Assembly (NCBI RefSeq): GCF_014842995.1
Contig: NZ_JACYXL010000017.1
Coordinates: 1 to 50,614 of the forward strand
From: Rhodanobacter sp. 7MK24
GTDB lineage: Bacteria > Pseudomonadota > Gammaproteobacteria > Xanthomonadales > Rhodanobacteraceae
Direction: 5' to 3'
Length of the DNA: 50,614 bases
Positions within the stretch are counted from its first letter, which is position 1; every line of letters begins with the position of its first letter. Both the position numbers and the translations under genes were made by a program. The notes under the pieces are model-generated. The model saw nothing but the letters and a program-made list of their open reading frames with translations. It was not told the DNA's origin and ran no database searches. Below, in pieces: positions 2,385-46,911 of the stretch.

Positions 2385-2447
2385 CCCCGCAAGGCGGTGT
2401 TCCTACGCTGGACCGGCGCAGCTGTGCGCGGTCAATGGGGAGAAACC

Positions 2448-5910: not shown

Positions 5911-5993
5911 TCATGCGGAACCTGACAGCCAGTGCAGTTCGGACGTCAGAGCTTCGCGCTGCAGTGCCGACTCGCTGGCCGCCGGAGCTGCTC
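5911..5993 (-). pseudogene. 3'-end remnant of a duplicate of the neighbouring DUF6348-like gene
   Basis: Directly downstream of the 5996-6646 gene, the minus strand encodes ESALQREALTSELHWL followed by a few residues and a stop (TGA at 5913-5911). The intact gene has ESALQREALTPELHWL near residues 145-160. The DNA is similar over about 65 bases and then diverges. There is no start and no room for the rest of the domain, so this is a degraded tandem copy. Confidence 0.72.
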
Positions 5994-5995
5994 AT

Positions 5996-6646
5996 TCAGT
6001 AATCGCACACGTCCAGCAGCATGAGGCCGTGGACGCTGTAGTCGCCGTGCGGAGACCACGCCAAGGTGGCCAGCGCCTTGCTCTCCGCCGTCCACAGCTC
6101 ATTTCCGAGCAGGACTTCGCAGCGCGCTTCGCCTTCGGTCGTCTTGCGGCACACCAGCCGTAGCCAATGCAGCTCGGGAGTCAATGCCTCGCGCTGCAGC
6201 GCGGATTCGATGACTGCCGGTACCTGTTCCAGCACCTCGAGGTCGGTGATGCCCGCGCCGTGCGGAGTGAACGGGCCGGCGAGCACGTTCCAGGTGCGCA
6301 CGCCAATCTCCCATGCCGTGTACGTCAGCTTGCGCTCGTCGGTGACGTACCAGCACACGGTCAGCAGCGGGTGCAGCGCGCATTGCCCGAACGCGCGCAA
6401 GGTGGTCATGCAGGCGTCCGCGCCGCTGCCGTGGCCTGCGAAGCTTTCCTCGATGCAGCGTTCTTCGCTCAGCACGACGTCGATGTCAAGGTGGCCGGGT
6501 TCGTTGGCCGTGCCGGCGTCCCATTGGGCGCGCACGGAGGGGAAGTCGCCGTCGGTGGTGAGCCAGCCGTCCTCGTCGGTGTCGAGTTTCACGCCGTTTC
6601 GCTCGAACAGCCGCAACAGGTGTTTCTGCAGTGCCACGCCATCCAT
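5996..6646 (-). CDS. uncharacterised protein, possibly DUF6348 family
   Basis: A 216-aa acidic, soluble protein with no signal peptide or membrane segment. Recognisable stretches include LRAFGQCALHPLLTVCWYV, WEIGVRTWNVLAGPF and the C-terminal WSPHGDYSVHGLMLLDVCDY. These recall a small family of bacterial hypotheticals (DUF6348), an assignment from memory with modest certainty; no function is known. The start codon lies two bases after the stop of the YgjP-like gene, so the two are probably co-transcribed. A fragment of a second copy follows immediately downstream. Confidence 0.75.
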   Translation of the reverse strand: MDGVALQKHLLRLFERNGVKLDTDEDGWLTTDGDFPSVRAQWDAGTANEPGHLDIDVVLSEERCIEESFAGHGSGADACMTTLRAFGQCALHPLLTVCWYVTDERKLTYTAWEIGVRTWNVLAGPFTPHGAGITDLEVLEQVPAVIESALQREALTPELHWLRLVCRKTTEGEARCEVLLGNELWTAESKALATLAWSPHGDYSVHGLMLLDVCDY

Positions 6647-8777: not shown

Positions 8778-8798
8778 GGCGGCTATCCGTGCGGTGGT

Positions 8799-8875
8799 GT
8801 AGGAGCGCACCTTGTGCGCGATTGCTTTTGCCTTGACCGAAGCTTAAGGCAATGGCGCACAGAGGGCGCCCCTAC
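8799..8875. repeat. GTAG-ended REP (SMAG-like) inverted-repeat element
   Basis: GTAGGAGCGCACCTTGTGCG opens the element; an imperfect complementary arm ends CCCCTAC at 8875. GTAG at each end and the GCGCAC...GTGCGC core are typical of REPs first described in Stenotrophomonas. The right end contains the stop codon (TAG, 8874-8872) of the DUF1501 gene. A close second copy is at 36809-36886. Confidence 0.85.
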
Positions 8876-10074
8876 ACAAGCCGCAGATCCTTCGGTCTGG
8901 CCTGCGGAAACACCGCCTGCAGCTGGTTGCCGTTCAAACCCCACAGCCGCGCGAACATGCCGCCCAGCACGTCGCGGTAATCGTTGAGCACCTGGTAGTC
9001 GCGGTTCTGCAGCAGGTTGGTCTGGGTTACCGCGAGCTGTTCGCCGGCGATGCGACCGCCGGCCACCTTGCCGCCCAGCACCCAGTGTACGGTGCCGTGG
9101 CCGTGGTCGGTGCCATGGTCGCCGTTCTCGCGGAAGGTGCGGCCAAATTCGGAGAGCACCACCACGGTGGTGTCGTTCCATGCATCGCCCATCGCATCGG
9201 CGTAGGCGGCGAGGCCTTCGCCAAGGTTCTTCAGATTGTTGGCGAGGCCGCCCTTGGTATTGCCCTGGTTGACGTGGGTGTCCCAGCCGCCGATATCGAC
9301 GAAGCCGAGACGGTACTGGTCGCGCATCAGGGTGGCGATGCGGCGCGTCTCCGCGGCGAAGTTGTGCGCGCTGGGTGCGCCGCGGCTGGCCGCCACCATC
9401 TCGTTGCGCAGGTCGTCGGACACGGTCTTGGGCAGGGCGAGGCCGTCGGCGCTGGCCTGCGCCAGCGCGGTGCCCTTGTACATGCCGGCCAGGATGGCCG
9501 ATTGCCGATCGTCGAAATGCGCCTTGGGATCGCCCTTCAACGAGATGTTGGGAATGTCGCGGCCCGCGCCCTGGAAGCTCAGCGGCAGGTTGTTGGTGAA
9601 GGCGATGGCCGGGGTGTCGTTGTTGAGCACGCCGGAGAGCCGCGCGAGGAAGCCGGAGCGGTAGTTGGCCACCGGGCCGAGCGGCTCGCCGCGTTCGATA
9701 TGGTCCTGTGTCTCGAAGTGGCTGCGCGAGAGGTCGTTGGTGCCGGCGAAGGGGATGAAGGCGAGCTGCTTCTTCTGCCACAGCGGGTAAAGCGAATCGC
9801 GCACCACCGGGCTCAACGCCCAGTTGGCGTCCAGCGGCAGCGCGCTGTCCGGATTGTTCGTGTCGGGCTTGGCGATGGCCAGCGTGGGGCGCGATTCGTA
9901 GTAGAAGTCGCTGCCGCAGGGCACCAGCAGGTTGTTGCAGTCGTAGCCGCCGCGCAGGAACACCAGCAGGAAGCGTGGCGTGCCTGCCGGAGCCGCGAAC
10001 AGCCGGCTGGAGAACGACAGCGTGGACGCGGCGGCGGCGCCGGCGGCGGCAAGCAGGAATTCGCGGCGGTTCAT
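8872..10074 (-). CDS. DUF1501 family protein with Tat signal
   Basis: A 400-aa protein. MNRREFLLAAAGAAAASTLS is a twin-arginine-type signal (NRREFLL), implying export in folded form. The body shows DUF1501 features of the alkaline phosphatase/sulfatase superfamily: PRFLLVFLRGGYDCNNLLVP near the mature start, FVDIGGWDTHVNQG and VVVLSEFGRTFRENGDHGTD, with the His/Asp residues that would bind metal. The substrate is unknown. It lies between two DUF1800 genes on the same strand (94 and 129 bases away). The stop codon lies within a REP element. Confidence 0.92.
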   Translation of the reverse strand: MNRREFLLAAAGAAAASTLSFSSRLFAAPAGTPRFLLVFLRGGYDCNNLLVPCGSDFYYESRPTLAIAKPDTNNPDSALPLDANWALSPVVRDSLYPLWQKKQLAFIPFAGTNDLSRSHFETQDHIERGEPLGPVANYRSGFLARLSGVLNNDTPAIAFTNNLPLSFQGAGRDIPNISLKGDPKAHFDDRQSAILAGMYKGTALAQASADGLALPKTVSDDLRNEMVAASRGAPSAHNFAAETRRIATLMRDQYRLGFVDIGGWDTHVNQGNTKGGLANNLKNLGEGLAAYADAMGDAWNDTTVVVLSEFGRTFRENGDHGTDHGHGTVHWVLGGKVAGGRIAGEQLAVTQTNLLQNRDYQVLNDYRDVLGGMFARLWGLNGNQLQAVFPQARPKDLRLV

Positions 10075-10106
10075 AGCAGATACCTCGACGGTGGCGTGGC
10101 ACGATT

Positions 10107-10187
10107 CGTCATTCCGGCGAAGGCTGGAATCCAGCGCCTTGCGACTTGGCCTGAAGTCGCTGGGCCCCGGCTTTCGCCGGGATGACG
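10107..10187. repeat. CCGGCGAAAGCCGG-type intergenic repeat
   Basis: The left arm CGTCATTCCGGCGAAGGCTG and the right arm CCCCGGCTTTCGCCGGGATG are complementary across a short spacer. It lies between the DUF1800 and DUF1501 genes. Related copies are at 18111-18194 and, in part, at 16392-16425. It is a dispersed, probably non-autonomous repeat that can fold as a hairpin between genes. Confidence 0.8.
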
Positions 10188-10203
10188 GTCAAAAATCAGG
10201 ACA

Positions 10204-11781
10204 TCAGCGATAGTTGAAGTCGGGCGAGGACAGCAGGAAGGTGTTCCATTCCGTGGGCGACTTCGCCTTGGCGAGTGCGTCGCGGGTGGCGTCGGAAAGC
10301 GTGGGCGCGATGGCGTCACGATACAGCGCCGAGCCTTGCAGATCGGGAGCGTCGTGCGCCGCGGATTTGGCGTCGCCATCGACAAACAGCCGGTTGCGTC
10401 CGCTGCCGATCACCCGCGCGAAGTCGAAGCGCTTGCTCAACTGGCCCGAACCGGTCCAGCTTGCCGAATCCAGCGGCCAGCCATCCGGCGTGATGCGGCC
10501 GTACAGCGGCTCGTCCATCTGCCGCAGCCAGTTTTGCAGCGGCGCGGCGTTCGGAATGGGTTGGCCGTCATAGGCCAGCCGCATCGACGAAACGACAAAG
10601 CGCATCGGATCCTTGAACTTGCGGCCGTCCACGGCGGCGGCCTCCTTCGACAGCATCATGGTGCGCATCACCGCGGCAATGTCGCCATCGGTATTCCGGA
10701 ACGTGCGCGCCATCGCGTCCACCAGCGCGGCCGGAGGCTCGTCGGCGATGAAGTACTCGGCGAGCTGGCGCGAGACGAATTGCGCGCAGGCGGGCTGGCG
10801 CACGATTAGGTCCACCGCCTGTGCGATCTCGGCGTAGCCGCTGCCTGGGATGGTCTGGCCGAGGAAGGTCTTGTCGCCGTCGTCGTGCTTGGCCGGGTTG
10901 AACAGGAACAGGCCATCGCGCACGACGCCGGGGCGCGCCAGCCCGAAGCGGCCGAGGCGTTGCGCCACCTTCGGCGGAGCGATGCCGGCGCCGGTAAGCA
11001 CGCGCATCAGTTGCTGCACGTCGGCCTGCGTATAACCCGAGCCTACGCCCAGCGTATGCAGCTCCATCAGCTCGCGGGCGTAGTTCTCGTTGGTCTTGCC
11101 CTTGACGTTCTGCGCGTTGTCGAGGAACACCAGCATGGCCGGGCTGGTCAGCGTGGCCATCACCAGGTCCTTGAACTTGCCCAATGCGTGCGGGCGGATC
11201 GCCTGTTCCTCGTAGTTCGCGGCGAACACGCGCACCGCACCCTTGTTCGCGTACACGCTGAAGTGGTTGAGCCAGAACCACACCAGCTGTTCCTTGAGCT
11301 GGTCGCCGCCATACACCGCATGCAGCAGCTCGGCCTGCGCGGCCTGTTGCTCAAGGTCGCGGCGATACTGTTGCAGCGCTTTCTTAGCCGCGTCTTTTCC
11401 GGGGCCGGCGGGCATGTCCTTGAAACGTCGCTGGCTGTCGCGGAAATCCGCCAGCAGGTCGGGCAGCGGCGTGTTCACCACCGACAGCGCGTTGATCTGC
11501 GCGGCGACCTGCGGCGGCAGCGTGTCGTCGGTGCCGGCCAGCTGTTCATCGAGGAAACGCGTGCGGCCGAGCTGTCGGTAGCTCGCCAGGGTGGCGCTGT
11601 CCAGGCCGAAACCATCGCGACGCAGCCAGGCGATGTCGGCGAGCGAAAGCCCATCCACCTGGGCCGTCACCGTGGCGGGGGCCATGCGTTGAGGCGCGGC
11701 CTGGCCTGCGCAGACCAGCACGGGCAGGCAACCGAGCAGCAGGCCAAGTGCATGGCGGCGACGTATCGGTGCGGCGGGCAT
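10204..11781 (-). CDS. DUF1800 family exported protein (second paralogue)
   Basis: A 525-aa protein with a signal peptide (RRHALGLLLGCLPVLVCAGQ, about residues 8-27), no clear lipobox at its end. It shares most hallmark blocks with the 7233-8777 protein: LKEQLVWFWLNHFSVYANKG, HALGKFKDLVMATLTSPAML, NYARELMELHTLGVGSGYT and GRITPDGWPLDSASWTGSGQ. Both end in LLxSPDFNYR. It is the first gene of the minus-strand trio DUF1800-DUF1501-DUF1800, probably one transcription unit. The duplication looks old, since the middles of the proteins differ considerably. Confidence 0.9.
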   Translation of the reverse strand: MPAAPIRRRHALGLLLGCLPVLVCAGQAAPQRMAPATVTAQVDGLSLADIAWLRRDGFGLDSATLASYRQLGRTRFLDEQLAGTDDTLPPQVAAQINALSVVNTPLPDLLADFRDSQRRFKDMPAGPGKDAAKKALQQYRRDLEQQAAQAELLHAVYGGDQLKEQLVWFWLNHFSVYANKGAVRVFAANYEEQAIRPHALGKFKDLVMATLTSPAMLVFLDNAQNVKGKTNENYARELMELHTLGVGSGYTQADVQQLMRVLTGAGIAPPKVAQRLGRFGLARPGVVRDGLFLFNPAKHDDGDKTFLGQTIPGSGYAEIAQAVDLIVRQPACAQFVSRQLAEYFIADEPPAALVDAMARTFRNTDGDIAAVMRTMMLSKEAAAVDGRKFKDPMRFVVSSMRLAYDGQPIPNAAPLQNWLRQMDEPLYGRITPDGWPLDSASWTGSGQLSKRFDFARVIGSGRNRLFVDGDAKSAAHDAPDLQGSALYRDAIAPTLSDATRDALAKAKSPTEWNTFLLSSPDFNYR

Positions 11782-11949
11782 GCGTCCATTCTCCGGCGAA
11801 GGGGTCGGACGGGTTCAACGTCGAAGGGGCCCCGGAAGATGACCGCCGTGTCGCGATGCACGGCACGGATTCGCTGGCGATTCATGTTTCGCATCAACTT
11901 GCGTCCGGGTGGTGGCGGTTACCATGCACCGTCCTGCCGGAGCCATGCG

Positions 11950-12558
11950 ATGCCCAAGACCTACGACCGCGCCTATTTCGACAAGTGGTACCGCGACCCC
12001 GCGCATGCGGTGGGCTCGGCCGCCGAACTCCGGCGCAAGGTGGCGATGGTGGTGGCGCAGGCGGAGTACTACCTCGGTCGGCCGCTGCGCAACGTGCTCG
12101 ACGTGGGCTGTGGCGAAGCCACCTGGCGCGCGCCGCTGCGCGCCCTGCGGCCCGGCATCGACTACCGCGGGCTGGATGCCAGCGAGTACGTGGTGGCGCG
12201 CTACGGCCGCAGCCGCAACATCGGCCTGGCGCGTTTCGGCCAGCTCGAACACCTGCGCTTTGACACCCGCTTCGACCTGATCGTGTGCACCGACGTGCTG
12301 CATTACCTCAAGCCTGCGGAAATCCGCGCCGGTCTCGCCGGCATCGTCGAGATGCTGGAAGGCATCGCCTTCCTCGAACTGTTCACTAGCCGCGACGATG
12401 TGGATGGTGACCATCACGGTTTCGTATCGCGGGCGCCGGGCTGGTATCTGCGCGCATTCGGCAATGCCGGGTTGTTGCCGTGCGGCTCGCATTGCTACCT
12501 GGGGCCGCGATTGGAACGGCGCATCGCGGCGTTGGAGCGGGCGCAGATGCCGGCGTAG
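11950..12558 (+). CDS. class I SAM-dependent methyltransferase
   Basis: A 202-aa protein starting MPKTYDRAYFDKWYRDPAHA. The SAM-binding motif I is VLDVGCGEATWRAPLRAL; the acidic residue of motif II is in YRGLDASEYVV, and motif IV is FDLIVCTDVLHYL. The substrate is not evident. The longer upstream frame overlaps the divergent DUF1800 gene and has no support. The gene is followed 58 bases later by the aspartyl-protease gene on the same strand and may be co-transcribed with it. Confidence 0.88.
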   Translation: MPKTYDRAYFDKWYRDPAHAVGSAAELRRKVAMVVAQAEYYLGRPLRNVLDVGCGEATWRAPLRALRPGIDYRGLDASEYVVARYGRSRNIGLARFGQLEHLRFDTRFDLIVCTDVLHYLKPAEIRAGLAGIVEMLEGIAFLELFTSRDDVDGDHHGFVSRAPGWYLRAFGNAGLLPCGSHCYLGPRLERRIAALERAQMPA

Positions 12559-12616
12559 TTGCATTGCGATCCGCGCACAATCCGGCGCGACTCGGCCGAA
12601 CCACAAGGGGGGGAAC

Positions 12617-14365
12617 ATGCTTCGGAAAGCGCACGTTCTGTTTTTAGGCATTGCCATGTTGCTGCAAGGCCGTGCGTTTGCGGGTACTTGCCAAGTGGCC
12701 GACTACGGCGCATTGCCGGTGGAGATGGTGGGGAATCGGGCTACCACCGAGGTGTCGATCAACGGCCAGAACACGCGCCTGTTCCTCGATACCGGCGCGT
12801 GGTTCAACACCATGTCGCGGGCCAACGCGGCTGACCTGAAGTTGCGCACGTCGATGCTGCCCTTCGGCATGCGCGGCTCAGGCATCGGCGGCACCTTCAG
12901 CGAGGAACTGGCGCGTATCAAGGACTTCAGCATGCTTGGTGCCACGCTGCACAACGTCGAGTTTCTGGTCGGCGGCTCGGACACCGGTTCGGGCCTCATC
13001 GGCGCCAATTTCCTCGACGTGGTCGATCTCGACATCGACCTTGCGCACGGCAAATTGCATTTGATGAAGCCCAACGGCTGCGGCGCGATGGCAATGGCCT
13101 ACTGGGTCACGGACGGCAACTTCCGCATGGCGGATTTGCTGCCCTCCAGAAACGAGCGTGATCGCCGCAGCTTCGTCAATGTTGTCATCAACGGCAAGAA
13201 GATTCGTGCCTTGCTCGACAGTGGTGCCGAGACGACGATGATGACGCGTGAAGCAGCGGAGCGCGTGGGCATCGACCTGTCCGCACCCGACGTGAAAGCT
13301 TCCGGGCACATGAGTGGCTTGGGCGCGAAAACCTTCCAGAGCTGGCTGGTGCCCATCGACAGCTATTCCATCGGCACCGAAACCATCAGCCACAGCAAGG
13401 TGCTGGTGATGGATGGCAACATCGGCTTTGGCAACGATGCGCCCGACATGCTGCTTGGCGTGGATTTTTTCCTTGCGCATCACATCTACGTCGCCAACAG
13501 CCAGGGCCGGATTTACTTCACCTACAACGGCGGGCGCGTGTTCTCGCTGGGGCAGGCCCCCAGTGGCACGGATACCGTAGCGGCGAGTGCCGCGGACGCG
13601 CCCAAGACAGCGGACGATTACGCGCTGCGTGGGCAAGCCGATCTCTCACGCGGTGAAACGGCAGCGGCGCTGGATGATTTGAACAAGGCCATCAGCATGG
13701 GGCCGGCCAAGGCGGACTGGTATGCCACGCGTGGGCGCGTGCATCTGGCGATGAAGCAGCCGGATGCTGCGATGGACGACCTCGATCAAGCCATCAAGCT
13801 CGATCCGAATGACGTCGGAAATCTTCTGCAGCGTGCGAGGCTGAAACTGACCCGCAAGGACAAGGCTGGTGCGGAGAGCGACGTGGCAGCAGCGCAGAAT
13901 CTGGCGCAGCCGGGGTCGCAGCAGTCCCGCGTGATCGCGCAGTTCTACTACACGACCGGCCAGCCCGCCGAGGCGTTGCCTCTGCTCGATGAATGGATTC
14001 GCCTGCACGGCAACGATCACGGCCTGGGTGTCGCGCTCAACGAACGCTGCCGCGCGCGCGCCTTGGCCAATGTGCTGCCCGACAAGGCGCTGAAGGATTG
14101 CCGCAAGGCGATCAGTCTCGACGGCGCCACTCCAGCCTATCTCGAAAGCATGGGGCTGGCGCAGTTGCGGATGCAGGACTATGCCGATGCCATCACCAGT
14201 TTCCAGCAGGTGGTGTCGCAGCAGCCGCACTGGGCATGGGCGCGTTATGGCCTGGGTCTGGCGAGGATACGCAGCGGGCAGCCCGACGCGGGTAATGCCG
14301 ATCTTGCTGCGGCCAAGGCGATCAACTCGCAGATCGCCGCGAAGTTCGAGAAGTACGGCATTTGA
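12617..14365 (+). CDS. exported double aspartyl-protease (retropepsin-like) protein with TPR domain
   Basis: A 582-aa protein with a strong ribosome site (GGGGGGGAA) before the ATG and a signal peptide ending near FAG (residues 21-23). Two retropepsin-like halves are fused: FLDTGAWFN (Asp58-Thr-Gly) and LLDSGAETTMM (Asp201-Ser-Gly). Retropepsins need two such lobes, so a single chain could form a complete active site. From about residue 330 there are several TPR repeats (LRGQADLSRGETAAALDDLN and following units), suggesting peptide or protein binding in the periplasm. The substrate is unknown. Confidence 0.85.
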   Translation: MLRKAHVLFLGIAMLLQGRAFAGTCQVADYGALPVEMVGNRATTEVSINGQNTRLFLDTGAWFNTMSRANAADLKLRTSMLPFGMRGSGIGGTFSEELARIKDFSMLGATLHNVEFLVGGSDTGSGLIGANFLDVVDLDIDLAHGKLHLMKPNGCGAMAMAYWVTDGNFRMADLLPSRNERDRRSFVNVVINGKKIRALLDSGAETTMMTREAAERVGIDLSAPDVKASGHMSGLGAKTFQSWLVPIDSYSIGTETISHSKVLVMDGNIGFGNDAPDMLLGVDFFLAHHIYVANSQGRIYFTYNGGRVFSLGQAPSGTDTVAASAADAPKTADDYALRGQADLSRGETAAALDDLNKAISMGPAKADWYATRGRVHLAMKQPDAAMDDLDQAIKLDPNDVGNLLQRARLKLTRKDKAGAESDVAAAQNLAQPGSQQSRVIAQFYYTTGQPAEALPLLDEWIRLHGNDHGLGVALNERCRARALANVLPDKALKDCRKAISLDGATPAYLESMGLAQLRMQDYADAITSFQQVVSQQPHWAWARYGLGLARIRSGQPDAGNADLAAAKAINSQIAAKFEKYGI

Positions 14366-36936: not shown

Positions 36937-38082
36937 ATGAGCGAGCAAGTCCTTCCCAAGGCCAAGAAGTCCGTGGCGCTGTCCGGCGTAGCCGCCGGCA
37001 ACACCGCGCTGTGCACGGTGGGCCGCAGCGGCAACGACCTGCACTACCGCGGCTACGACATCCACGACCTGGCCACCAAGGGCTGCTTCGAGGAAGTGGC
37101 CTATCTGCTGGTGCACGGCGTGTTGCCGAACTGGACGGAGCTGCAGAACTACAGGGCCAAGCTCAAGCGCCTGCGCGGCCTGCCGGCGCCGGTGAAGGCA
37201 GCACTGGAACTGTTGCCCGCCGCCACCCATCCGATGGACGTGATGCGCACCGGCTGCTCGGCACTGGGCACGGTGCTGCCGGAGAAGGACGACCACAACG
37301 TCACCGGCGCGCGCGACATCGCCGATCGCCTGATGGCCAGCTTCGGCTCCATGCTGCTGTACTGGTACCACTTCAGCCACAACGGCAAGCGGGTAGAGAC
37401 TCAGACCGACGACGAGACGATCGCCGCGCACTTCCTGCACGTGCTGCACGGCAAGGCACCCAGCGAACTGCATGCGAACGCGCTGGACAAGTCGCTGGTG
37501 CTTTACGCGGAGCATGAATTCAACGCCAGCACCTTCACCGCCCGCGTGATCGCAGGTACCGGTTCGGACATGTATTCCGCCATCACCGGCGCCATCGGCG
37601 CGCTGCGCGGCCCCAAGCACGGCGGCGCGAACGAAGTGGCGATGGAGATCATCGCGCGCTATCGCAACGCCAGCGATGCGGAGGCCGACATCCGCGCCCG
37701 CGTCGAGCGCAAGGAAATCGTGATCGGCTTCGGCCATCCGGTGTACACGGTGTCCGATCCGCGCAACGTGATCATCAAGGAAATCTCGCGCAAGCTCTGC
37801 ACCGAAGGCGGCAACCCGACCTTGTTTGACGTGTCCGAGCGCATCGAGAAGGTGATGTGGGAAATCAAGAAGATGTTCCCCAACCTCGATTGGTACTCGG
37901 CCAGCGCCTACCACATGATGGGCGTGCCCACGGCGATGTTCACGCCGTTGTTCGTGATCGCACGCACCTCCGGCTGGAGTGCACACGTGATCGAGCAACG
38001 CGAGGACGGCAAGATCATCCGCCCCAGCGCCAATTACACCGGCCCGGAAGACCTGGCCTACATGCCAATCGACAAGCGCTGA
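36937..38082 (+). CDS. prpC: 2-methylcitrate synthase
   Basis: A 381-aa citrate-synthase-fold enzyme. Characteristic stretches are [20 protein letters not shown] (PrpC-type N-terminus), the catalytic His in [18 protein letters not shown], the oxaloacetate-binding [17 protein letters not shown] and the Asp-containing [20 protein letters not shown]. Length and the short N-terminus separate it from GltA-type citrate synthases. It joins propionyl-CoA and oxaloacetate. CAGGAGA precedes the ATG. A strong terminator follows. Confidence 0.96.
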
Positions 38083-38110
38083 TGCGCCGGTAGACCAACG
38101 CAAATAATAA

Positions 38111-38139
38111 GGAAAGGGGCCGCAAGGCCCCTTTCCTTT
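38111..38139 (+). terminator. intrinsic terminator after prpC
   Basis: GGAAAGGGGCC-GCAA-GGCCCCTTTCC followed by TTT: an 11-bp stem with GNRA-like loop, 28 bases after the prpC stop. It separates the prpBC unit from the secretion cluster. Confidence 0.88.
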
Positions 38140-38422
38140 GGGAGATGCGAAAGCCGGCCTTTAGCGGGTGTTTCGCAGCCGTGGTGGTTGTAACAGCAAC
38201 GATACAGTCTTGAATAATTGATCGATTTTCGTGTAACTAATTGATATTTAATTGTAATTGGCATGTGATGGCCGGCTCGAATCGGGAGCGGCCGAGAAGG
38301 GTGTATCAGAAATGCATCACCCGGAATCCGTTACGCCCCCATTATGCGGGGGCGAGGCGGAAAGCCTTTCTCCAATTGATTGATTGGTAGGGCTTTGTTT
38401 TCGGATTGCCGGGTGCCTGGCG
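38140..38422 (+). promoter_or_regulatory. AT-rich, hairpin-rich control region before the Fap-like cluster
   Basis: No gene is seen in this region. It holds a strikingly AT-rich stretch (about 38205-38265) with several TAATTG/AATTGAT units, then hairpins: GGCC..GGCC (38271-38294), GGGTG..CACCC (38300-38322) and CGCCCCC-ATTATGC-GGGGGCG (38334-38354). The AT-rich part could bind H-NS-like proteins or enhancer proteins for the sigma-54 site downstream. No known riboswitch motif was recognised. Confidence 0.45.
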
Positions 38423-38423
38423 G

Positions 38424-38439
38424 CTGGCATGCAGTTTGC
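38424..38439 (+). promoter_or_regulatory. sigma-54 (RpoN) promoter candidate
   Basis: TGGCATG-CAGT-TTGCC fits the -24/-12 consensus TGGCACG-N4-TTGCW with both invariant GG and GC dinucleotides in phase. Transcription would start near 38451, 62 bases before the first gene of the cluster. CTGGCA/TGCCAG also makes this an inverted repeat, so an operator is an alternative. Confidence 0.55.
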
Positions 38440-38512
38440 CAGTCATGAAAGCTTGCTGAACAAGCAATGCAAAAAAGCAGGGGGTCAATTCGGCATTCCG
38501 GGAGAAATCCAT

Positions 38513-39481
38513 ATGCGCAAGACACTTCTTTTCACGGCACTGGCGCTTGGCTTGGGACTAGCCCTCCCGGCCATGGCTAACAACAATTCCAACCAGCACA
38601 ACAACAACTCGTCGAACGAGCACAACAACAGCTCGGTCAATCATTCGGGCAATACCAACACCAACTCGAGCACCAACACCAAGACCGTCACCAAGAACCT
38701 GAGCCTGAGCGATGTCCAAAGTTCCGGTTTCGGAACGGCGGCGGCGGACAACGGTGGAATGGCCAGCGCTTCGGTCAGCGATGCATTCAACAAGAGCATC
38801 GCGGTTGCCAACACCGATCTTGAAGGAGCCGTGAGCAACGTCAAGGTATTCGGTATCGGCAACAGCGCCGATAACCTCGGCAACGCGAATGGTGCACGCG
38901 GCGGCAATGGTGGCAGCGGCAGTGGCGGCCGTGGCGGCAATGCCAACGGCGGATCGGGCGGCGACGGTGGGAATTCCTCCGCGCACAGCGGCTTCGCAGG
39001 CGGCTCAGGTTCGAGCAGCGGCGATTCGGCAGCCGGTAGTGGCGCGTTTGGCGCCAATGGCTGGGGCGCTGGCGGCAATGCCACGGCCAATGCCGACAAT
39101 CACGCCGGGACAGACGGCGCCAAGGGCGGTGCCGGTAGTGCGGATGGCGGCAGCAACAAGGCCGGTGCGGCGACTTCGACCAGCGGCGACAGCTCGTCGA
39201 TGGGCGGCTCCAGCGGCTACGCCGCGAGTGCTGGCGGCCACGGTGGCGCCGGTGGCGCCGGTGGCATGAGCACGGGCGGCAACGGCAGTGGCGGTGCGGC
39301 CGGCAACGGTGGCAATGGCGGTACGGCTGCCGCGGATGCTGGCTCCTTCGACATGGCTAACAGCATGAACAACGCCGCGGAGGGCGCGGCGGGCATCACG
39401 ACGATCGCCCAGAACAGCGGTGCGGCGTCGTTGATCCAGCAAGGCGTGACTGTCCAGGCCAACCTGAGCGTAGGTCACTGA
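38513..39481 (+). CDS. Gly/Ser/Asn-rich secreted protein, candidate Fap-like fibre subunit
   Basis: A 322-aa protein with a classic signal peptide (MRKTLLFTALALGLGLALPA, cleavage after AMA) and GGGAGAAA upstream. After an Asn/Ser/His-rich segment (about 24-60) comes a structured-looking part (NLSLSDVQSSGFGTAAADNG, about 62-110), then a long Gly/Ala/Ser low-complexity region (about 120-285) and a conserved-looking end, TTIAQNSGAASLIQQGVTVQ. It has no cysteine. Composition and the neighbours (C39 peptidase, coiled-coil porin) suggest an amyloid or fibre subunit comparable to FapB/FapC, though clear Fap repeats are not seen. First gene after the sigma-54 site; a 15-bp hairpin follows. Confidence 0.7.
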   Translation: MRKTLLFTALALGLGLALPAMANNNSNQHNNNSSNEHNNSSVNHSGNTNTNSSTNTKTVTKNLSLSDVQSSGFGTAAADNGGMASASVSDAFNKSIAVANTDLEGAVSNVKVFGIGNSADNLGNANGARGGNGGSGSGGRGGNANGGSGGDGGNSSAHSGFAGGSGSSSGDSAAGSGAFGANGWGAGGNATANADNHAGTDGAKGGAGSADGGSNKAGAATSTSGDSSSMGGSSGYAASAGGHGGAGGAGGMSTGGNGSGGAAGNGGNGGTAAADAGSFDMANSMNNAAEGAAGITTIAQNSGAASLIQQGVTVQANLSVGH

Positions 39482-39493
39482 GCGACGATCACC

Positions 39494-39528
39494 CGACACG
39501 ATGGGGCGCGCATCGCCCCATCGTGTCG
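39494..39528 (+). terminator. 15-bp hairpin after the fibre-subunit gene
   Basis: CGACACGATGGGGCG-CGCAT-CGCCCCATCGTGTCG is a perfect 15-bp stem starting 12 bases after the stop, with no T-run. It probably stabilises the upstream message or attenuates the downstream genes, giving excess subunit. Confidence 0.7.
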
Positions 39529-39604
39529 CTGGTGTTGGCCGATCGCCGTGGGCGATCGGCACTTGCGTCGTTTTCGACGCGCAGAGCGCTTGAGGAGCGG
39601 TGTC

Positions 39605-39991
39605 ATGCCTTTGATGAGAGCTTCGCTTGGAGCGTTGCTGCTGGGGCTTGCGGGAACGCCCGCGTGGACGGTGGCTGCGACCGCGCCGAATCACGCTGGC
39701 CAGCAACCGCAAACAGCCGCGACGTCGCCTCCCGTCTATGTCGGCGGATTGGGGCAGGCAGTGAGTGCCGAGACGCTGGATCGCTACAGCGGCGGTACCA
39801 GCGTTCGCAACAACCAGAACCTCAGCGGCACGGTGTCGAACAACAGCGCGACGAAGGTGAACACCGGATCGAATGTGATCAGCGCCAATTCGTTCAGCGG
39901 CGCAACGGGTTTGCCGACGGTCATCCAGAACACCGGCAACAACGTGCTGATCCAGAACGGCGTCATCGTCAACGTGCAGTTCAAGCCATGA
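39605..39991 (+). CDS. small secreted protein of the Fap-like cluster
   Basis: A 128-aa protein with GAGGAG ahead of the ATG and a signal peptide (MPLMRASLGALLLGLAGTPA). The mature protein is Asn/Ser/Thr-rich (GGTSVRNNQNLSGTVSNNSA) and ends GLPTVIQNTGNNVLIQNGVI plus a few residues. The VIQN..N..IQ.GV block recurs at the C-termini of the 38513 and 40688 proteins, suggesting a shared secretion or polymerisation signal. Not recognised beyond this; it could be a nucleator or minor fibre component. Its stop overlaps the start of the C39 peptidase gene (ATGA). Confidence 0.65.
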   Translation: MPLMRASLGALLLGLAGTPAWTVAATAPNHAGQQPQTAATSPPVYVGGLGQAVSAETLDRYSGGTSVRNNQNLSGTVSNNSATKVNTGSNVISANSFSGATGLPTVIQNTGNNVLIQNGVIVNVQFKP

Positions 39992-40677
39992 AGAGGTGGC
40001 TGCCAGTGCTGGCGATCCTGGCTGCCGTGGCGAATCCCGTCAGCCTGCAGGCCGCATCGGCACTGATCAACAACAGCTCGCAACAGGCCGTTGTGCTGCA
40101 TCTGACCACGCTCAAGGAAGCCAAATTCAGGAACACCATCCGGCAGAAATACGATTTCAGCTGCGGCTCCGCGGCCGTGGCGACCTTGCTGACCTATCAG
40201 TACGGCTATCCGGTCAGTGAGCAGACCGCCTTCGAGCAGATGTACGTACATGGCGACCGCGCCAAGATCAACAAGGAAGGGTTCTCGCTGCTGGACATCA
40301 AGCGTTTTCTGGCGGCCAACGGTTTCCAGGCCGACGGCTTCCACGCGTCGCTGGAAAAGCTGCAGGAGGAGCACCTCCCGGCAATCGTGCTGATCGAAGA
40401 GAAGAAGTACCACCACTTCGTGGTGATCAAGGGGCTGGCCTACGGACGCGTGCTGATCGGCGATCCCGCCTTGGGCACACGCACGATTCCACGCGATCGC
40501 TTCGACCAGCTGTGGAAGAACAAATTGCTGTTCGTCATCTATAACCGGCGCGATTTTGCCCAGTTCAACACGGTCGACGATTGGAAGGCCGCACCGTACG
40601 CGCCGCTGACGGCAGGCGTCGATCGGCGCCCGCTGTACTACCTCACCATGCCCAAGTTCGGGCCTGGCCAGTACTGA
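39988..40677 (+). CDS. periplasmic C39-family peptidase (FapD-like)
   Basis: A 229-aa protein with a signal peptide (MKRWLPVLAILAAVANPVSL). The C39 cysteine-protease core is complete: catalytic Cys59 in QKYDFSCGSAAVATLLTYQY, His143 in KKYHHFVVIKGL, and Asp159 in VLIGDPALGTRTIPRDRF. Stand-alone exported C39 proteases of this type (FapD) belong to Fap functional-amyloid systems, where they are needed for processing or secretion of the fibre proteins. Its start overlaps the preceding gene and it lies 10 bases from the next, inside the same operon. Confidence 0.87.
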   Translation: MKRWLPVLAILAAVANPVSLQAASALINNSSQQAVVLHLTTLKEAKFRNTIRQKYDFSCGSAAVATLLTYQYGYPVSEQTAFEQMYVHGDRAKINKEGFSLLDIKRFLAANGFQADGFHASLEKLQEEHLPAIVLIEEKKYHHFVVIKGLAYGRVLIGDPALGTRTIPRDRFDQLWKNKLLFVIYNRRDFAQFNTVDDWKAAPYAPLTAGVDRRPLYYLTMPKFGPGQY

Positions 40678-40687
40678 GGTGATCGAA

Positions 40688-41527
40688 ATGAAAAAGCTCT
40701 TGCGCGCGGTACGCATCACATTGCCGCTGTGCCTGTTCGGTGGCACAGGGATCGTGCATGCGATGACAGGGACGGCGCCCGCGGATCCGGACGCCAGGGC
40801 GCTGCTCCCGGCCGACGCGAATGCGAGCCAGAGCGTGGCACCTGCCGACCGGCGGGAGGGCGGCTCCGACTTCGGCGCGCCGGTGGACGACGCGGGGCTC
40901 GACTCGGTACGCGGTGGTTTCGATCTAGGCAACGACCTGCAGGCGTCACTCGGTATCGAACAGGTCACCTACATCAACGGCAAGCTGGTGACCTCCACCG
41001 ACATCAATATCCCGGACATCGCCCAGATCACCCAGCAGCAGGCAGTGGCCTTGGCAACCGCGCTCAGCAACCTCAATGTGGTGGTCCAGAACGGGCCGGG
41101 CAACAGTGCCGACTCGTCCGCGGCGGTGCGCGACGATGTCGCGACGATGCTGGGCCAGGGTGCATCAGGCAGCTCGCCGGCTTCGACGGGACAGGGTGCT
41201 GTTGCAACGGGACAGGGGGCTGTTGCGACCACCTCGGTTCAAGGTGCATCGGGTAACACGAACACTCCGGTTTCGGTGACGCAGGCGTCTTCGGTGCCGC
41301 TGGCCAGCATATCGTCAACGAACGCGGGCGCATCGAATGGCGTAGCGACAGTCTCCCTGCCTGGATTGAACGGCGGCCTGGCGACGGTCATCCAGAATTC
41401 GTTGAACAACCAGTCCATCCGCACGCTCACCACGCTCAACATTTCGCTGAATACCTTGCAGATCCTGCGCAACATGAATCTGCAGAGCACCCTGCAGTCG
41501 GCACAGATGCTGTCGCTCGGGCATTGA
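40688..41527 (+). CDS. secreted protein of the Fap-like cluster (possible minor fibre component)
   Basis: A 279-aa protein; the ATG at 40688 has AGGTGA upstream and opens MKKLLRAVRITLPLCLFGGT, a signal peptide. Around residue 75 is DAGLDSVRGGFDLGNDLQAS followed by GIEQVTYINGKLVTSTDIN, a motif pair I associate with proteins next to FapD/FapF-like genes. The middle contains a Gly/Ala/Ser/Thr-rich tract with the repeat GQGAVAT twice in tandem. The end has GLATVIQNSLNNQSIRTLTT, the same C-terminal motif as the other two secreted proteins, and finishes SLGH, close to the SVGH end of the 38513 protein. No cysteine in the mature part. Confidence 0.7.
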   Translation: MKKLLRAVRITLPLCLFGGTGIVHAMTGTAPADPDARALLPADANASQSVAPADRREGGSDFGAPVDDAGLDSVRGGFDLGNDLQASLGIEQVTYINGKLVTSTDINIPDIAQITQQQAVALATALSNLNVVVQNGPGNSADSSAAVRDDVATMLGQGASGSSPASTGQGAVATGQGAVATTSVQGASGNTNTPVSVTQASSVPLASISSTNAGASNGVATVSLPGLNGGLATVIQNSLNNQSIRTLTTLNISLNTLQILRNMNLQSTLQSAQMLSLGH

Positions 41528-41597
41528 GCGCCCGCTCAGATGCCAACTCCTGCGGTGGGCACCAATCTCCTACATCTCGGTTTCGCAAGGAGCTGAC

Positions 41598-42977
41598 ATG
41601 GATCGCAAAAGGTCGCGATGGGTGTGTTCGGCGGGTTGTGCCGGATTCCTTTTCCTCGGCGGCTGGGCTGGGGCACAAGAGGGGCCGGCACCAGCCACTC
41701 CGGCATCCGGCGACGCATCGGCATCTTCCGCGGCGATACGCAAGCAGTTGCAGGAGCAGGACGAACGCATCAATGCGCTGCGCCAGCAGATCGATGCGCA
41801 GTTGGTGCAACTGGGGGCGATGCGCAAGGAGCTCGCGCAGCAGCAGTCCGATTACCGGGCCTTGCGTCACGCAGTAGGCGTGCAGGAGCTGGAGCAGCAG
41901 CGTGGCGGCAACCTGGGTGCCTCTGGCACCAGTGCATCGACCGAGCCGATGCCGGCGCCTGATGCCATGCAGTCGGTCGCTGCCGCACAGCAGCCGGTCG
42001 GGGTGGCGCCGCCGAAGGACGCCCGTCCGCCGGAAGTCGCGCCGATCTCCAATCAGCCGGGCGTGCTGACTCCCAAGGGCAAGCTTGTCATCGAGCCCTC
42101 CTACCAGTTCGGCTATTCCTCCGCCAGCCAGGTCGATCTGGTCGGTTACACCGTCATTCCGGCCATCCTTATCGGTCTCATCGACGTACGTACCGTGCGG
42201 ACCACCACTCAGACGACCACGCTCACCGCACGCTATGGCATCACCAATCGCCTCGAGCTGGAATTGCGCGTGCCTTACGTGTGGACGGGCAGCAACATCG
42301 TCAGTCGTGAGATCTTCACAGGGACGGCGACCAACAACGTGCTGAGTTCGAGTGGCAGCGGTCTGGGCGATATCGAGGCCACCGCGCGCTACCAGTTCAA
42401 CGACGGCGGCGCGGACAAGCCGTATTTCATCGGGTGGTTCCGCTTCAAGTCGCGCACCGGCACGGATCCGTTCGACGTGACCACCGACTGCGTGACGCGT
42501 TGCGTGGAGAACGTCACCGGTACCGGACTTCCGCTGCAACTGCCCACCGGTTCCGGCTTCTATTCCGCACAGCCCGGCATGACCTGGCTGCTGCCCTCCG
42601 ACCCGGTGGTGTTCTTCGGCAACCTGAGCTACCTGTACAACTTCGAGCGGCACGGCGTGTGGGAAGACCTGGTGCTAGGCAGGCAATACCTGGGCACTGT
42701 GAGAGTCGGCAATGTCGGCGACGCGAGCCTTGGCATGGGTTTCGCCCTGAACGACAAGGCCACGCTCAGCATCGGTTACGACCAGAGCATCATCGGTGTC
42801 ACCAAGGAGATGGGCCAGACGGTGCCCGGCTCGACCAAGGTCTGGCTGGGGCAGTTGCTGATCGGCGGCGCTTATCGACTGAGTCCGACCCGCACGGTCA
42901 ACTTCACGCTGGCCGCTGGCGTCACCCACGACACGCCCGACGTGCTGGTGACGGTGCGTGTGCCGATGACATTTTGA
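41598..42977 (+). CDS. FapF-like outer-membrane porin/transporter with coiled coil
   Basis: A 459-aa protein: signal peptide (to about residue 26), a heptad-rich coiled coil (SAAIRKQLQEQDERINALRQ and onward, about 44-100), a Pro/Ala linker, then a beta-barrel from about 150 (KLVIEPSYQFGYSSASQVDL) to a C-terminal Phe (VRVPMTF), the signal for BAM. This order matches FapF, whose helical plug controls a trimeric barrel that exports amyloid subunits. It is the last gene of the cluster. A generic transporter of the meta-pathway phenol-degradation porin family is the alternative. Confidence 0.75.
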   Translation: MDRKRSRWVCSAGCAGFLFLGGWAGAQEGPAPATPASGDASASSAAIRKQLQEQDERINALRQQIDAQLVQLGAMRKELAQQQSDYRALRHAVGVQELEQQRGGNLGASGTSASTEPMPAPDAMQSVAAAQQPVGVAPPKDARPPEVAPISNQPGVLTPKGKLVIEPSYQFGYSSASQVDLVGYTVIPAILIGLIDVRTVRTTTQTTTLTARYGITNRLELELRVPYVWTGSNIVSREIFTGTATNNVLSSSGSGLGDIEATARYQFNDGGADKPYFIGWFRFKSRTGTDPFDVTTDCVTRCVENVTGTGLPLQLPTGSGFYSAQPGMTWLLPSDPVVFFGNLSYLYNFERHGVWEDLVLGRQYLGTVRVGNVGDASLGMGFALNDKATLSIGYDQSIIGVTKEMGQTVPGSTKVWLGQLLIGGAYRLSPTRTVNFTLAAGVTHDTPDVLVTVRVPMTF

Positions 42978-43070: not shown

Positions 43071-43739
43071 TCAGTCGACCGGCGGTCGCCGGTGTCGCCG
43101 CCACCATCCGACGGCGCAGACGCACACGGCCACCAGCAACCCAAGCGCGTGCGTCAGGCCGTGGTGCGCATCGAAGAGCTCATGCAGCAGATGGTCGTGC
43201 GCGATCATGCGGACAGCCGTCCAGGTGATCGTGCCGGCGCCTAGGTAGACGATGACTGGGAAGCGCTCGATCAGCCTGAGGATCAGGGTCGAGCCCCATA
43301 CCACCAGGGGCACGCTGATCAGCAGGCCCAGCGTGAGCAGAGGCAGGTTGCCGTGCGATGCGCCGGCGATCGCCAGCACATTGTCCACGCCCATCAGCGC
43401 GTCGGCGACGATGATGGTACGCAGCGCCGACCAGAAACCGTCAGCGGCGGAAACTTCATGCGCAGCGTCGTTCTGCTTCAGCAATTTCCAGGCGATCGGC
43501 AACAGCAGTACGCCGCCCAGCAGCATCAAGCCAGGCAATCTCAGCAGCCAGATCAGCAAGGCGCTGAGCACGATGCGCACCGCCACGGCACCGACCGTAC
43601 CCCAGAGCACCGCACGCTTCCGCAGCGTTCCTGGCAGGTTGCGAGCGGCCAGTGCGATCACGATGGCGTTGTCGCCGGCCAGAACCAGGTCGAGCAGGAC
43701 GATGGCCATCAGGCCGGAGAGGAAGCTGGTGGGTGCCAT
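43071..43739 (-). CDS. TerC family membrane protein, probable Mn2+ exporter
   Basis: A 222-aa protein with seven or so hydrophobic helices. TerC signature: LMAIVLLDLVLAGDNAIVIA with acidic residues in TM1 and IIVADALMGVDNVLAIAGAS in the symmetric second half. A His-rich loop follows (HDHLLHELFDAHHGLTHALG, about 177-196). Family members (E. coli Alx, Bacillus MeeF/MeeY) export manganese. A yybP-ykoY riboswitch directly upstream supports this role. It is convergent with the porin gene of the Fap-like cluster. Confidence 0.9.
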   Translation of the reverse strand: MAPTSFLSGLMAIVLLDLVLAGDNAIVIALAARNLPGTLRKRAVLWGTVGAVAVRIVLSALLIWLLRLPGLMLLGGVLLLPIAWKLLKQNDAAHEVSAADGFWSALRTIIVADALMGVDNVLAIAGASHGNLPLLTLGLLISVPLVVWGSTLILRLIERFPVIVYLGAGTITWTAVRMIAHDHLLHELFDAHHGLTHALGLLVAVCVCAVGWWRRHRRPPVD

Positions 43740-44316: not shown

Positions 44317-46911
44317 ATGAATACTGTCTACCGTCAATCCCTTCCCGGCACGTCGCTGGATTACTTCGATGCGCGCGCCGCCGTGGAGGCGATCCAGCCG
44401 GGCGCCTACGACACCCTGCCGTATACCTCGCGCGTGCTCGCCGAAAACCTGGTGCGCCGTTGCGATCCGGCGATCCTCGCCGAGTCGCTCAAGCAGATCA
44501 TCGAGCGCAGGCGCGATCGCGATTTCCCATGGTTCCCGGCGCGCGTGGTGTGCCATGACATCCTCGGCCAGACGGCCCTGGTCGACCTGGCCGGCTTGCG
44601 CGATGCGATCGCCGACCGCGGCGGCGACCCGGCCAAGGTGAATCCCGTGGTGCCGGTGCAGCTGATCGTCGACCATTCGTTGGCGGTGGAGTGCGGCGGC
44701 TTCGACCCGGACGCGTTCGCCAAGAACCGCGCGATCGAGGATCGCCGCAACGAGGATCGCTTCCACTTCATCGAGTGGACCAAGAAGGCATTCGAGAACG
44801 TCGACGTGATCCCGCCGGGTAACGGCATCATGCACCAGATCAACCTGGAGAAGATGTCGCCGGTGATCCAGGTGCAGGATGGTGTCGCGTATCCGGATAC
44901 CTGCGTGGGCACCGACAGCCACACGCCGCACGTAGACGCGCTCGGTGTGATTGCCATCGGCGTCGGTGGCCTGGAAGCCGAGAACGTGATGCTCGGCCGC
45001 GCGTCGTGGATGCGCCTGCCGGACATCGTCGGCGTCGAGCTCACCGGCAGGCGCCAGCCCGGCATCACCGCCACCGACATCGTGCTGGCGCTCACCGAAT
45101 TTCTGCGCAAGGAAAAGGTGGTCGGCGCTTACCTGGAATTCCGCGGTGAAGGTGCGGCGAGCCTCACGCTCGGCGATCGCGCGACGATCTCGAACATGGC
45201 GCCCGAATACGGTGCAACGGCTGCGATGTTCTTCATCGACGGCCAGACGACCGACTACCTGCGCCTCACGGGCCGCAGCGACGAGCAGGTGAAACTGGTC
45301 GAGACCTACGCGAAGGCGGCCGGCCTGTGGGCCGATACGCTGAGCAACGCGCAATACGAGCGCACGCTGACGTTCGACCTGTCGAGCGTCGTGCGCAACA
45401 TGGCTGGCCCATCGAACCCGCACAAGCGGCTGCCGACGTCCGATCTCGCCGCGCGAGGGATCGCCGGCCAGTGGGAAGAGAAAGCGGGCGAGATGCCCGA
45501 CGGCGCGGTGATCATCGCGGCGATCACCAGCTGCACGAACACCAGCAACCCGCGCAACGTGATCGCGGCTGGCCTGCTCGCGCGCAACGCGAATGCGAAG
45601 GGCCTCGTGCGCAAGCCGTGGGTGAAGAGCTCGCTCGCGCCTGGCTCGAAGGCGGTCCGGCTATATCTGGAAGAAGCGAACCTGCTGCCCGAACTCGAGA
45701 AGCTCGGCTTCGGCATCGTCGCGTTCGCGTGCACGACCTGCAACGGGATGTCGGGTGCGCTCGACCCGAAGATTCAACAGGAGATCGTCGAGCGCGACCT
45801 GTACGCGACAGCCGTGCTGTCCGGCAACCGCAACTTCGACGGCCGCATCCATCCGTATGCGAAGCAGGCGTTTCTCGCATCGCCGCCGCTCGTCGTCGCG
45901 TATGCGATCGCCGGTACGATCCGCTTCGACATCGAGAAGGATGTGCTCGGTCACGACCAGGACGGCAAGCCGGTCACGCTGAAGGACATCTGGCCGACCG
46001 ACGAGGAGATCGATGCGATCGTCGCGACTAGCGTGAAGCCCGAACAGTTCCGCAGGGTCTACGAACCGATGTTCGCGCGCCCCGCCGGCGCGGGCGAGCG
46101 CGCGGCGCCGCTGTACGACTGGCGGGCGCAGAGCACGTACATCCGTCGTCCGCCGTACTGGGAGGGTGCGCTGGCCGGTGAGCGCACACTGAAGGGCATG
46201 CGTCCGCTTGCGGTGCTCGGCGACAACATCACGACCGATCACCTGTCGCCGTCGAACGCGATCCTCGCGAACAGCGCGGCCGGCGAATACCTGACGAAGA
46301 TGGGCTTGCCGGAAGAAGACTTCAACTCGTATGCGACACACCGGGGAGACCACCTGACCGCGCAGCGCGCGACTTTCGCGAACCCGACGCTCATCAACGA
46401 GATGGCAGTTGTCGACGGCGCGGTGAAGAAGGGCTCGCTCGCGCGTGTCGAGCCGGAGGGCAAGGTCATGCGGATGTGGGAGGCGATCGAGACGTACATG
46501 GATCGCAAGCAGCCGCTGATCGTGATCGCCGGCGCCGACTACGGCCAGGGCTCGTCGCGCGACTGGGCGGCGAAGGGCGTGCGGCTCGCGGGCGTCGAGG
46601 CGATCGTCGCCGAAGGGTTCGAGCGGATCCACCGCACGAACCTGATTGGGATGGGCGTGCTGCCGCTCGAGTTCAAGCCGGGCACGAACCGCACGACGCT
46701 GGGCATCGACGGCACCGAGATCTTCGACGTCGTTGGCCAACCGACGCCGGGCGGCGTGCTCAGCCTCGTCGTGCACCGGCGCAACGGTGAGACTTTCGAG
46801 GTCCCGGTGCGCTGCCGCCTCGACTCCGACGAGGAAGTCTCGATCTATGAGGCCGGCGGCGTGCTGCAACGCTTCGCGCAAGACTTTCTCGCATCGAACG
46901 CGGCGGCATGA
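44317..46911 (+). CDS. acnD: Fe/S-dependent 2-methylisocitrate dehydratase AcnD
   Basis: An 864-aa aconitase-superfamily enzyme, the AcnD size. The 4Fe-4S cysteines are in ITSCTNTSNPRNVIAAGLLA and AFACTTCNGMSGALDP; substrate loops include VCHDILGQTALVDLAGLRDA, TDSHTPHVDALGVIAIGVGG and the swivel-domain GADYGQGSSRDWAAKGVRLA. With PrpF it converts 2-methylcitrate towards 2-methylisocitrate. Codon use changes near 45.2-45.4 kb: the first part favours ACC for Thr, the rest favours ACG and is rich in CTC/TCG/GCG, suggesting a recombinant gene. The stop overlaps the next ATG (ATGA). Confidence 0.95.
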   Translation: MNTVYRQSLPGTSLDYFDARAAVEAIQPGAYDTLPYTSRVLAENLVRRCDPAILAESLKQIIERRRDRDFPWFPARVVCHDILGQTALVDLAGLRDAIADRGGDPAKVNPVVPVQLIVDHSLAVECGGFDPDAFAKNRAIEDRRNEDRFHFIEWTKKAFENVDVIPPGNGIMHQINLEKMSPVIQVQDGVAYPDTCVGTDSHTPHVDALGVIAIGVGGLEAENVMLGRASWMRLPDIVGVELTGRRQPGITATDIVLALTEFLRKEKVVGAYLEFRGEGAASLTLGDRATISNMAPEYGATAAMFFIDGQTTDYLRLTGRSDEQVKLVETYAKAAGLWADTLSNAQYERTLTFDLSSVVRNMAGPSNPHKRLPTSDLAARGIAGQWEEKAGEMPDGAVIIAAITSCTNTSNPRNVIAAGLLARNANAKGLVRKPWVKSSLAPGSKAVRLYLEEANLLPELEKLGFGIVAFACTTCNGMSGALDPKIQQEIVERDLYATAVLSGNRNFDGRIHPYAKQAFLASPPLVVAYAIAGTIRFDIEKDVLGHDQDGKPVTLKDIWPTDEEIDAIVATSVKPEQFRRVYEPMFARPAGAGERAAPLYDWRAQSTYIRRPPYWEGALAGERTLKGMRPLAVLGDNITTDHLSPSNAILANSAAGEYLTKMGLPEEDFNSYATHRGDHLTAQRATFANPTLINEMAVVDGAVKKGSLARVEPEGKVMRMWEAIETYMDRKQPLIVIAGADYGQGSSRDWAAKGVRLAGVEAIVAEGFERIHRTNLIGMGVLPLEFKPGTNRTTLGIDGTEIFDVVGQPTPGGVLSLVVHRRNGETFEVPVRCRLDSDEEVSIYEAGGVLQRFAQDFLASNAAA

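Follow-up and report, generated by a model that had tools for sequence, protein, structure and literature searches.

Analysis of the 50,614-nucleotide contig NZ_JACYXL010000017.1 of Rhodanobacter sp. 7MK24 (the window, meaning that stretch at its full length) revealed a cluster of five genes on the forward strand, P1 to P5 (38513-42977), which we read as a divergent second lineage of Fap-type secretion systems exporting single-module fibre or matrix proteins. We put the probability of this reading at about three in four; secretion and amyloid formation are predicted from sequence. An earlier sequence-only reading had placed five same-strand genes between prpC (36937-38082) and acnD (44317-46911) and had proposed a divergent system with Fap-like parts. 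Both points are borne out here, the second by homology to FapD, FapE and FapF and by a barrel clade of its own with 100/99 support. The first gene does not begin at 38424, where there is no start codon; the ATG of P1 is at 38513.

P3, P4 and P5 are, by profile comparison, homologous to FapD, FapE and FapF, and stand in the same order after two module proteins. The earlier statement that the order differs from that of Fap was therefore wrong: it is that of fapB-C-D-E-F. P3 (39988-40677, +; 229 amino acids) is a predicted exported C39 cysteine peptidase of the FapD type. Its best NCBIfam matches were FapD (E 8.1e-38, 129.9 bits against an equivalog cut-off of 330) and FilB (E 4.3e-37, also below cut-off), and a domain search returned the C39 domain alone, without an ATP-binding cassette (ABC) transporter domain. 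The catalytic residues Gln53, Cys59, His143 and Asp159 were present in 116/116 distinct homologues. The other C39 domain of the window's genome (G000:C12:4588-4971, 128.7 bits) lies in a 737-residue open frame.

P4 (40688-41527, +; 279 amino acids) had no family in Pfam or NCBIfam, and neither did P1; P2 gave only weak matches below cut-off. An HHalign comparison of P4 with FapE, represented by 16 proteins of canonical fap loci, gave an E value of 1e-9 (probability 96.4) and a score of 66.6, including a contribution from the signal peptide, which raises the score; the maximum among 60 column shuffles was 27.5. An RGG motif at residues 75-77 (40910-40918, +) is the predicted C39 cleavage site. 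It was invariant in 34/34 aligned sequences and present in all 107 distinct P4 proteins, 106 of which carried LxxxRGG, whereas the 16 FapE proteins had RGR at the equivalent place. The constancy of the motif fits cleavage of a FapE-type protein. For Pseudomonas, the portion covered of one study describes FapE alone as seemingly processed at its N terminus (PMC5557850).

P5 (41598-42977, +; 459 amino acids) is the putative outer-membrane exporter. It matched NCBIfam FapF with E 1.3e-44 (152.6 bits; equivalog cut-off 700, a value reached by no match in our order and class surveys) and FilC with E 2.2e-15 (56.9 bits; cut-off 630). The search of the 229- and 459-residue proteins against FapD and FapF profiles that the earlier reading had suggested thus returned both families, each below its cut-off. 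A profile built from 45 P5 proteins and run against solved structures gave FapF at an E value of about 1e-39, with the next sequence at 0.059. The AlphaFold2 model (mean predicted local distance difference test score (pLDDT) 70.4, predicted template modelling score 0.56) showed a long helix at residues 42-103 followed by strands forming a barrel (about 163-459), as expected of the coiled-coil and barrel protein first proposed. Foldseek ranked FapF first (5o67/5o65; E 2.9e-19, template modelling score by target 0.81) and a COG4313 channel second (Pput2725, 4rl8; 11% identity). Profile, fold and tree all group the barrel with FapF and set it apart from unrelated transporters.

The two proteins encoded upstream are candidate FapB/C-type subunits. 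P1 (38513-39481, +; 322 amino acids) is rich in Gly, Ala, Ser and Asn, P2 (39605-39991, +; 128 amino acids) is small, and both have the appearance of exported proteins; the reading frames of P2 and P3 share four bases (ATGA). Distinct proteins numbered 108/124 for P1, 113/130 for P2, 116/132 for P3 and 111/126 for P4, and the counts given here use length filters. P1 and P2 have a C-terminal module in common (39338-39478 and 39869-39988, both +; HHalign E 3.6e-12, with 0/100 column shuffles as high), and P2 also resembled the C terminus of P4 (E 1.3e-5, 0/100). The G-9-G-7 spacing of the Fap repeat was found in 111/112 distinct P2 proteins, with N, Q, S, T or D at the last position, and in 99/101 P1 proteins, with N or Q. 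Aligned with 123 canonical Fap repeats, the P2 module gave E 1.6e-4 (probability 50, 0/100 column shuffles as high). Three P1 relatives from one other gammaproteobacterial family contain four modules each (L095, 3593-4504; L102, which has two such genes, 2258-3163 and 5658-6644; all +). Their modules matched the Fap repeats (E 2.3e-7, probability 93.5), the P1 C termini (E 2e-11) and the P2 C termini (E 5e-9), each with 0/150 shuffles as high. As the four-module relatives match both, they tie the module of P1 and P2 to the Fap repeat. A separate locus, L096, has two tandem P1-like genes adjoining one C39 peptidase gene (about 10908-14212, -).

The strict Fap repeat pattern, X15GX4NX3GX6NX7, occurs in three copies in FapB and FapC, and three strict repeats per FapB/C were seen in the canonical fap loci. 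It was absent from P2 to P5 of the window; in P1 there were two overlapping matches within the Gly-rich part, a result equalled by 2.6% of shuffles. The earlier remark that the secreted proteins have none of the usual Fap repeats is therefore correct for the triple repeat and incorrect for the single Fap-type module at the C termini of P1 and P2. No curlin repeat (CsgA/B) was detected in P1, P2 or P4 by Pfam at E 1. The classic leader consensus of C39 substrates ends in a double glycine, and a related motif, L-x3-(x)-GG, was found in 103/112 distinct P2 proteins; in the window it reads LDRYSGG (39776-39796, +) and is a predicted C39 cleavage site.

A genome scan gave at least 544 candidates encoding a relative with an E value of 1e-3 or less, among which canonical Fap may be included, and gene order was surveyed in the best 80. 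At 77 of these 80 loci P1 to P4 kept their order and were followed by P5, which lay on the strand of the other four genes at 65 loci and was reversed at 12, so the five open reading frames are real genes and not chance, and the expectation that the cluster would be conserved in other genomes was confirmed. The exceptions were L165, which is rearranged, and L171 and L186, which are interrupted by contig ends. The carriers among the best 80 belong to Rhodanobacteraceae, Lysobacteraceae and Burkholderiales. As an intact unit with reduced fibre proteins, the cluster occurs in many bacteria of soils and plants and may be an overlooked route to surface fibres. Among 15 further loci from ten other gammaproteobacterial families, a C39 homologue was found near the barrel gene in 13 and P2 in 11; P1 and P2 were not found at two of them, L094 and L106. 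The Rhodanobacteraceae group includes metagenome records placed by similarity (L114, titled Eremiobacteraeota, and L129 and L143, titled Lysobacterales). L114 carries the whole cluster beside prpB-prpC with Rhodanobacteraceae-like identity, and is therefore probably misnamed or mis-binned. At L165 (Undibacterium) the C39, P1 and P2 genes are apart from the barrel gene, with a GAFTGA-type gene in between.

Within Rhodanobacteraceae, a P5 homologue was present in 64/117 genomes, as the window type in 45 (57-73% identity, window itself excluded), as a type of 24-29% identity in 25, and as both in 6. The only FapF-family match in the window's genome is P5. Twenty loci of the 24-29% type were read: 19 (all except L060) had open reading frames with exactly three repeats, and a FapB/C gene was found in 20/20 under other open reading frame settings; these 20 loci are canonical Fap. 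In the order and class surveys no FapF profile score fell between 171 and 307 bits. An unrooted tree of 68 barrels, none of them a named Pseudomonas sequence, placed window-type barrels (40 rows, hand-picked from 136 collected; support 100/99), Fap barrels (21 rows; 100/99) and FilC-like barrels (3 rows, with L243 and L245 left out; 100/100) each on one side of a branch. The FilC-like rows score 198-281 bits against a FilC cut-off of 630, which makes them candidate Fil proteins only. The cluster shares descent with Fap and appears to work alike, yet it is not to be filed as a Fap system, because the triple repeat is absent and the barrel lies outside the Fap clade.

The position beside prpC is a family trait. 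The prpC gene was found upstream of the cluster in 63/67 Rhodanobacteraceae loci; the other four stand at contig ends (L085, L147) or come from Pinirhizobacter-type records (L086, L150). It adjoined the cluster in 0/21 Lysobacteraceae, 0/32 Burkholderiales and 0/15 other gammaproteobacterial loci (0/68; in both counts some genomes were counted twice). The prpC-acnD gap of the window is 6.2 kb. In 20 regions from cluster-free genomes of the family, the corresponding distance was 1.04-1.12 kb for three congeners and 3.6 kb for one other; in the remaining 16, acnD was outside the stretch taken. Since the linkage is so regular inside the family and absent elsewhere, the site is an old family-level location at which the cluster has been gained or lost; the cluster is not a recent arrival at a foreign site. 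The cluster does lie between prpC and acnD, as the sequence-only reading had it; its description as inserted in the methylcitrate locus does not hold in the sense of a recent event. In eleven Burkholderiaceae loci, mostly Cupriavidus (L160, L162, L164, L167, L172, L174, L175, L182, L184, L187 and L191), a distant aconitase-family match (24-28% identity to acnD) was seen in the first 1.5 kb on the reverse strand, about 4 kb before P1.

To describe the promoter region we used 97 distinct upstream sequences from 109 regions, 14 of the 123 P1 loci having no usable start. Sigma-54 promoters have a characteristic -24/-12 consensus, and a site of this type, TGGCATGCAGTTTGC, lies at 38425-38439 (+), 88 bp upstream of the P1 ATG. 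The strict pattern TGGCAYRN4TTGC was found in 29/54 Rhodanobacteraceae upstream sequences, mostly near -80, and in 0/17 Lysobacteraceae, 0/21 Burkholderiales and 1/5 others (shuffle mean 0.06 over all 97). A palindrome, TGTAWCN6GWTACA, occurred in 25/54 Rhodanobacteraceae sequences at about -190 to -350 relative to P1, and in 1/17, 0/21 and 1/5 of the other groups (shuffle mean 0.00). The copy in the window (TGTAAC-N6-GATACA, 38189-38206) is the single match in the 4.15 Mb genome. At the 20 canonical fap loci, the 1.7 kb preceding the first FapB/C gene contained the palindrome in 11 cases (shuffle mean 0.00), the strict sigma-54 pattern in 15 (0.05) and the loose one in 19 (0.59). Of 97 forward palindrome sites in the family, 76 could be classified, 18 of them before a window-type cluster and 9 before fap.

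A frame with GAFTGA, a motif of sigma-54 activators, was found in 14/20 canonical fap loci and in 7/15 of the distant gammaproteobacterial loci (L093-L107). The window's genome encodes a single clear counterpart (G000:C34:241527-242831; 60% identity over residues 10-444, the next protein 47%) of the fap-adjacent activator of L053. This counterpart carries a VpsR domain, which in the L053 protein is below threshold. In Pseudomonas fluorescens, according to the parts covered of two reports, fap carries an RpoN promoter and requires the enhancer-binding protein BrfA, which is reported to sense cyclic di-GMP and is encoded in reverse beside fapF (PMC9207406, PMC13101488). Judging from these signatures, the cluster is probably under cyclic di-GMP/RpoN control in Rhodanobacteraceae. 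The palindrome is a candidate site for the activator, which may bind there and respond to cyclic di-GMP.

Taken together, the data suggest the following pathway. P1, P2 and P4, which have signal-like N termini, would enter the periplasm by Sec. There P3 would cut P4, and in most species P2 too, after the conserved double glycine. By homology with FapF, P5 would export P1, P2 and P4; it is presumably a trimer whose coiled coil lies in the periplasm. Outside the cell, P1 and P2 could then co-assemble through their single C-terminal modules into a fibre or matrix on which the long Gly/Asn/Ser-rich stretch of P1 would form an exposed brush. In Rhodanobacteraceae, transcription would start from the sigma-54 promoter under a VpsR/BrfA-type enhancer-binding protein that answers cyclic di-GMP and also serves canonical fap.

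A number of results weigh against this pathway. In the window, P1 and P2 have one module each. Direct comparison of P1 with the 123 canonical Fap repeats was weak (3/100 shuffles as high), and P1 against P4 was not significant (20/100). No Fap repeat was found in P4 by profile (65/100 shuffles as high), and its AlphaFold2 model was poor (pLDDT 55). Among P2 proteins of the more distant gammaproteobacterial families, the double-glycine motif was present in 3/11 and missing from 8/11. About half of the Rhodanobacteraceae upstream sequences, and nearly all others, lacked the sigma-54 site and the palindrome, and 49 of the 76 classified palindromes lie away from both fibre clusters; these may mark other members of a regulon. 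No GAFTGA-type activator gene was found at the cluster loci read from Rhodanobacteraceae or Lysobacteraceae, nor, apart from L165 and the seven distant gammaproteobacterial loci, at other window-type loci.

The products might not be fibres at all. P1 and P2 could act as soluble proteins of the matrix or as adhesins, or else be bacteriocin-like peptides whose maturation takes place at a double glycine, as the C39 peptidase, the GG motifs and the single module per subunit in most species would allow. We regard this as unlikely, given that P3 has no ABC part, that P5 is a FapF-type pore, and that there are Fap-type modules as well as sites shared with fap. That the cluster is canonical Fap, merely fast-diverged in this lineage, would explain the matching gene order and the homologous D, E and F components, and the lack of fapA would be no obstacle, since fapA is often absent from true Fap as well, going by the part covered of one survey (PMC3792158). 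It is nevertheless improbable: 6/117 family genomes have both systems, the barrels form separate 100/99 clades, the FapF profile scores show the 171-307 bit gap, and P1 and P2 are without the triple repeats of FapB/C. As the whole answer, canonical Fap was rejected on co-occurrence, repeats and tree.

The conserved prpC neighbour, together with COG4313 as the next best fold, might instead suggest an outer-membrane uptake channel of the COG4313 type serving propionate metabolism. On the other hand, the barrel is encoded together with a C39 peptidase and with exported module proteins, its fold matches FapF clearly better, and prpC is beside the cluster at none of the 68 loci in other groups. Because the linkage ends at the family border, the propionate tie was rejected, and we give such a channel almost no credence. 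Hardly any more can be said for the putative pilus system Fil, as described for Acinetobacter: P3 matches FilB almost as strongly as FapD, but P5 matches FapF far better than FilC (E 1.3e-44 against 2.2e-15), and the three FilC-like barrels, themselves candidates scoring below cut-off, form their own 100/100 group. Filing under curli, Fil or C39-ABC export was rejected by the domain and profile searches and the barrel tree.

A divergent Fap-type lineage thus remains our preferred reading. Only tentatively, as something that may well prove too broad, do we extend it to a widespread and apparently undescribed Fap-type branch with single-module fibres, a Gly/Asn-rich brush, double-glycine maturation and the cyclic di-GMP/RpoN activator of canonical Fap. 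If that is true, genomes with both systems would build two fibres from one switch. The five-gene system was not described in the titles and abstract starts of the open-licence literature searched. In Table 1 of a Fap survey, most FapD and FapF profile hits were deemed unspecific, 70/1594 and 68/217 respectively being correct (PMC3792158), and a review mentions fapD and fapF homologues lying together in five additional phyla, the partner genes being unnamed in the parts covered (PMC6173800). Some of those hits can now be assigned to a defined five-gene system. With it, the question of what FapD cuts becomes testable, as the RGG of the FapE-type protein here never varies, and so does that of how few repeats a Fap-type fibre needs, with mostly one here and four in some relatives. 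The cluster also points to a common regulon for two fibre systems.

No fapA was found next to the cluster: the forward strand has no open reading frame of at least 80 amino acids lying wholly between prpC and P1. A strong inverted repeat 3' of prpC (38109-38138) is terminator-like on the reverse strand only. The next gene after P5 belongs to the TerC family (43071-43739) and has the opposite orientation. Elsewhere in the window (7233-11781, -), the open reading frame list shows two similar-looking frames of 525 amino acids flanking one of 400, an apparent tandem arrangement.

Compared with known systems, the cluster most resembles Fap, with which it has in common a FapD-type C39 peptidase, a FapE homologue, a FapF-type coiled-coil barrel, an equal gene order and a Fap-type module, and in Rhodanobacteraceae also the sigma-54 site, the palindrome and the activator family. 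It differs from Fap in its separate clade, the lack of fapA, the Gly/Asn-rich P1, a single C-terminal module where Fap has three repeats, and RGG in place of the RGR of the 16 FapE proteins. With Fil (FilB and FilC in NCBIfam) it shares a C39 peptidase and a barrel homologue, but the FilC match is far below that to FapF and the FilC-like barrels are separate. The COG4313 channels are alike in barrel fold, at 11% identity in the fold match, and the parts covered of PMC6173800 report no C39 partner for them. The C39 ABC exporters of double-glycine peptides have the same peptidase domain and GG sites, whereas P3 is a lone, apparently exported peptidase without transporter domains.

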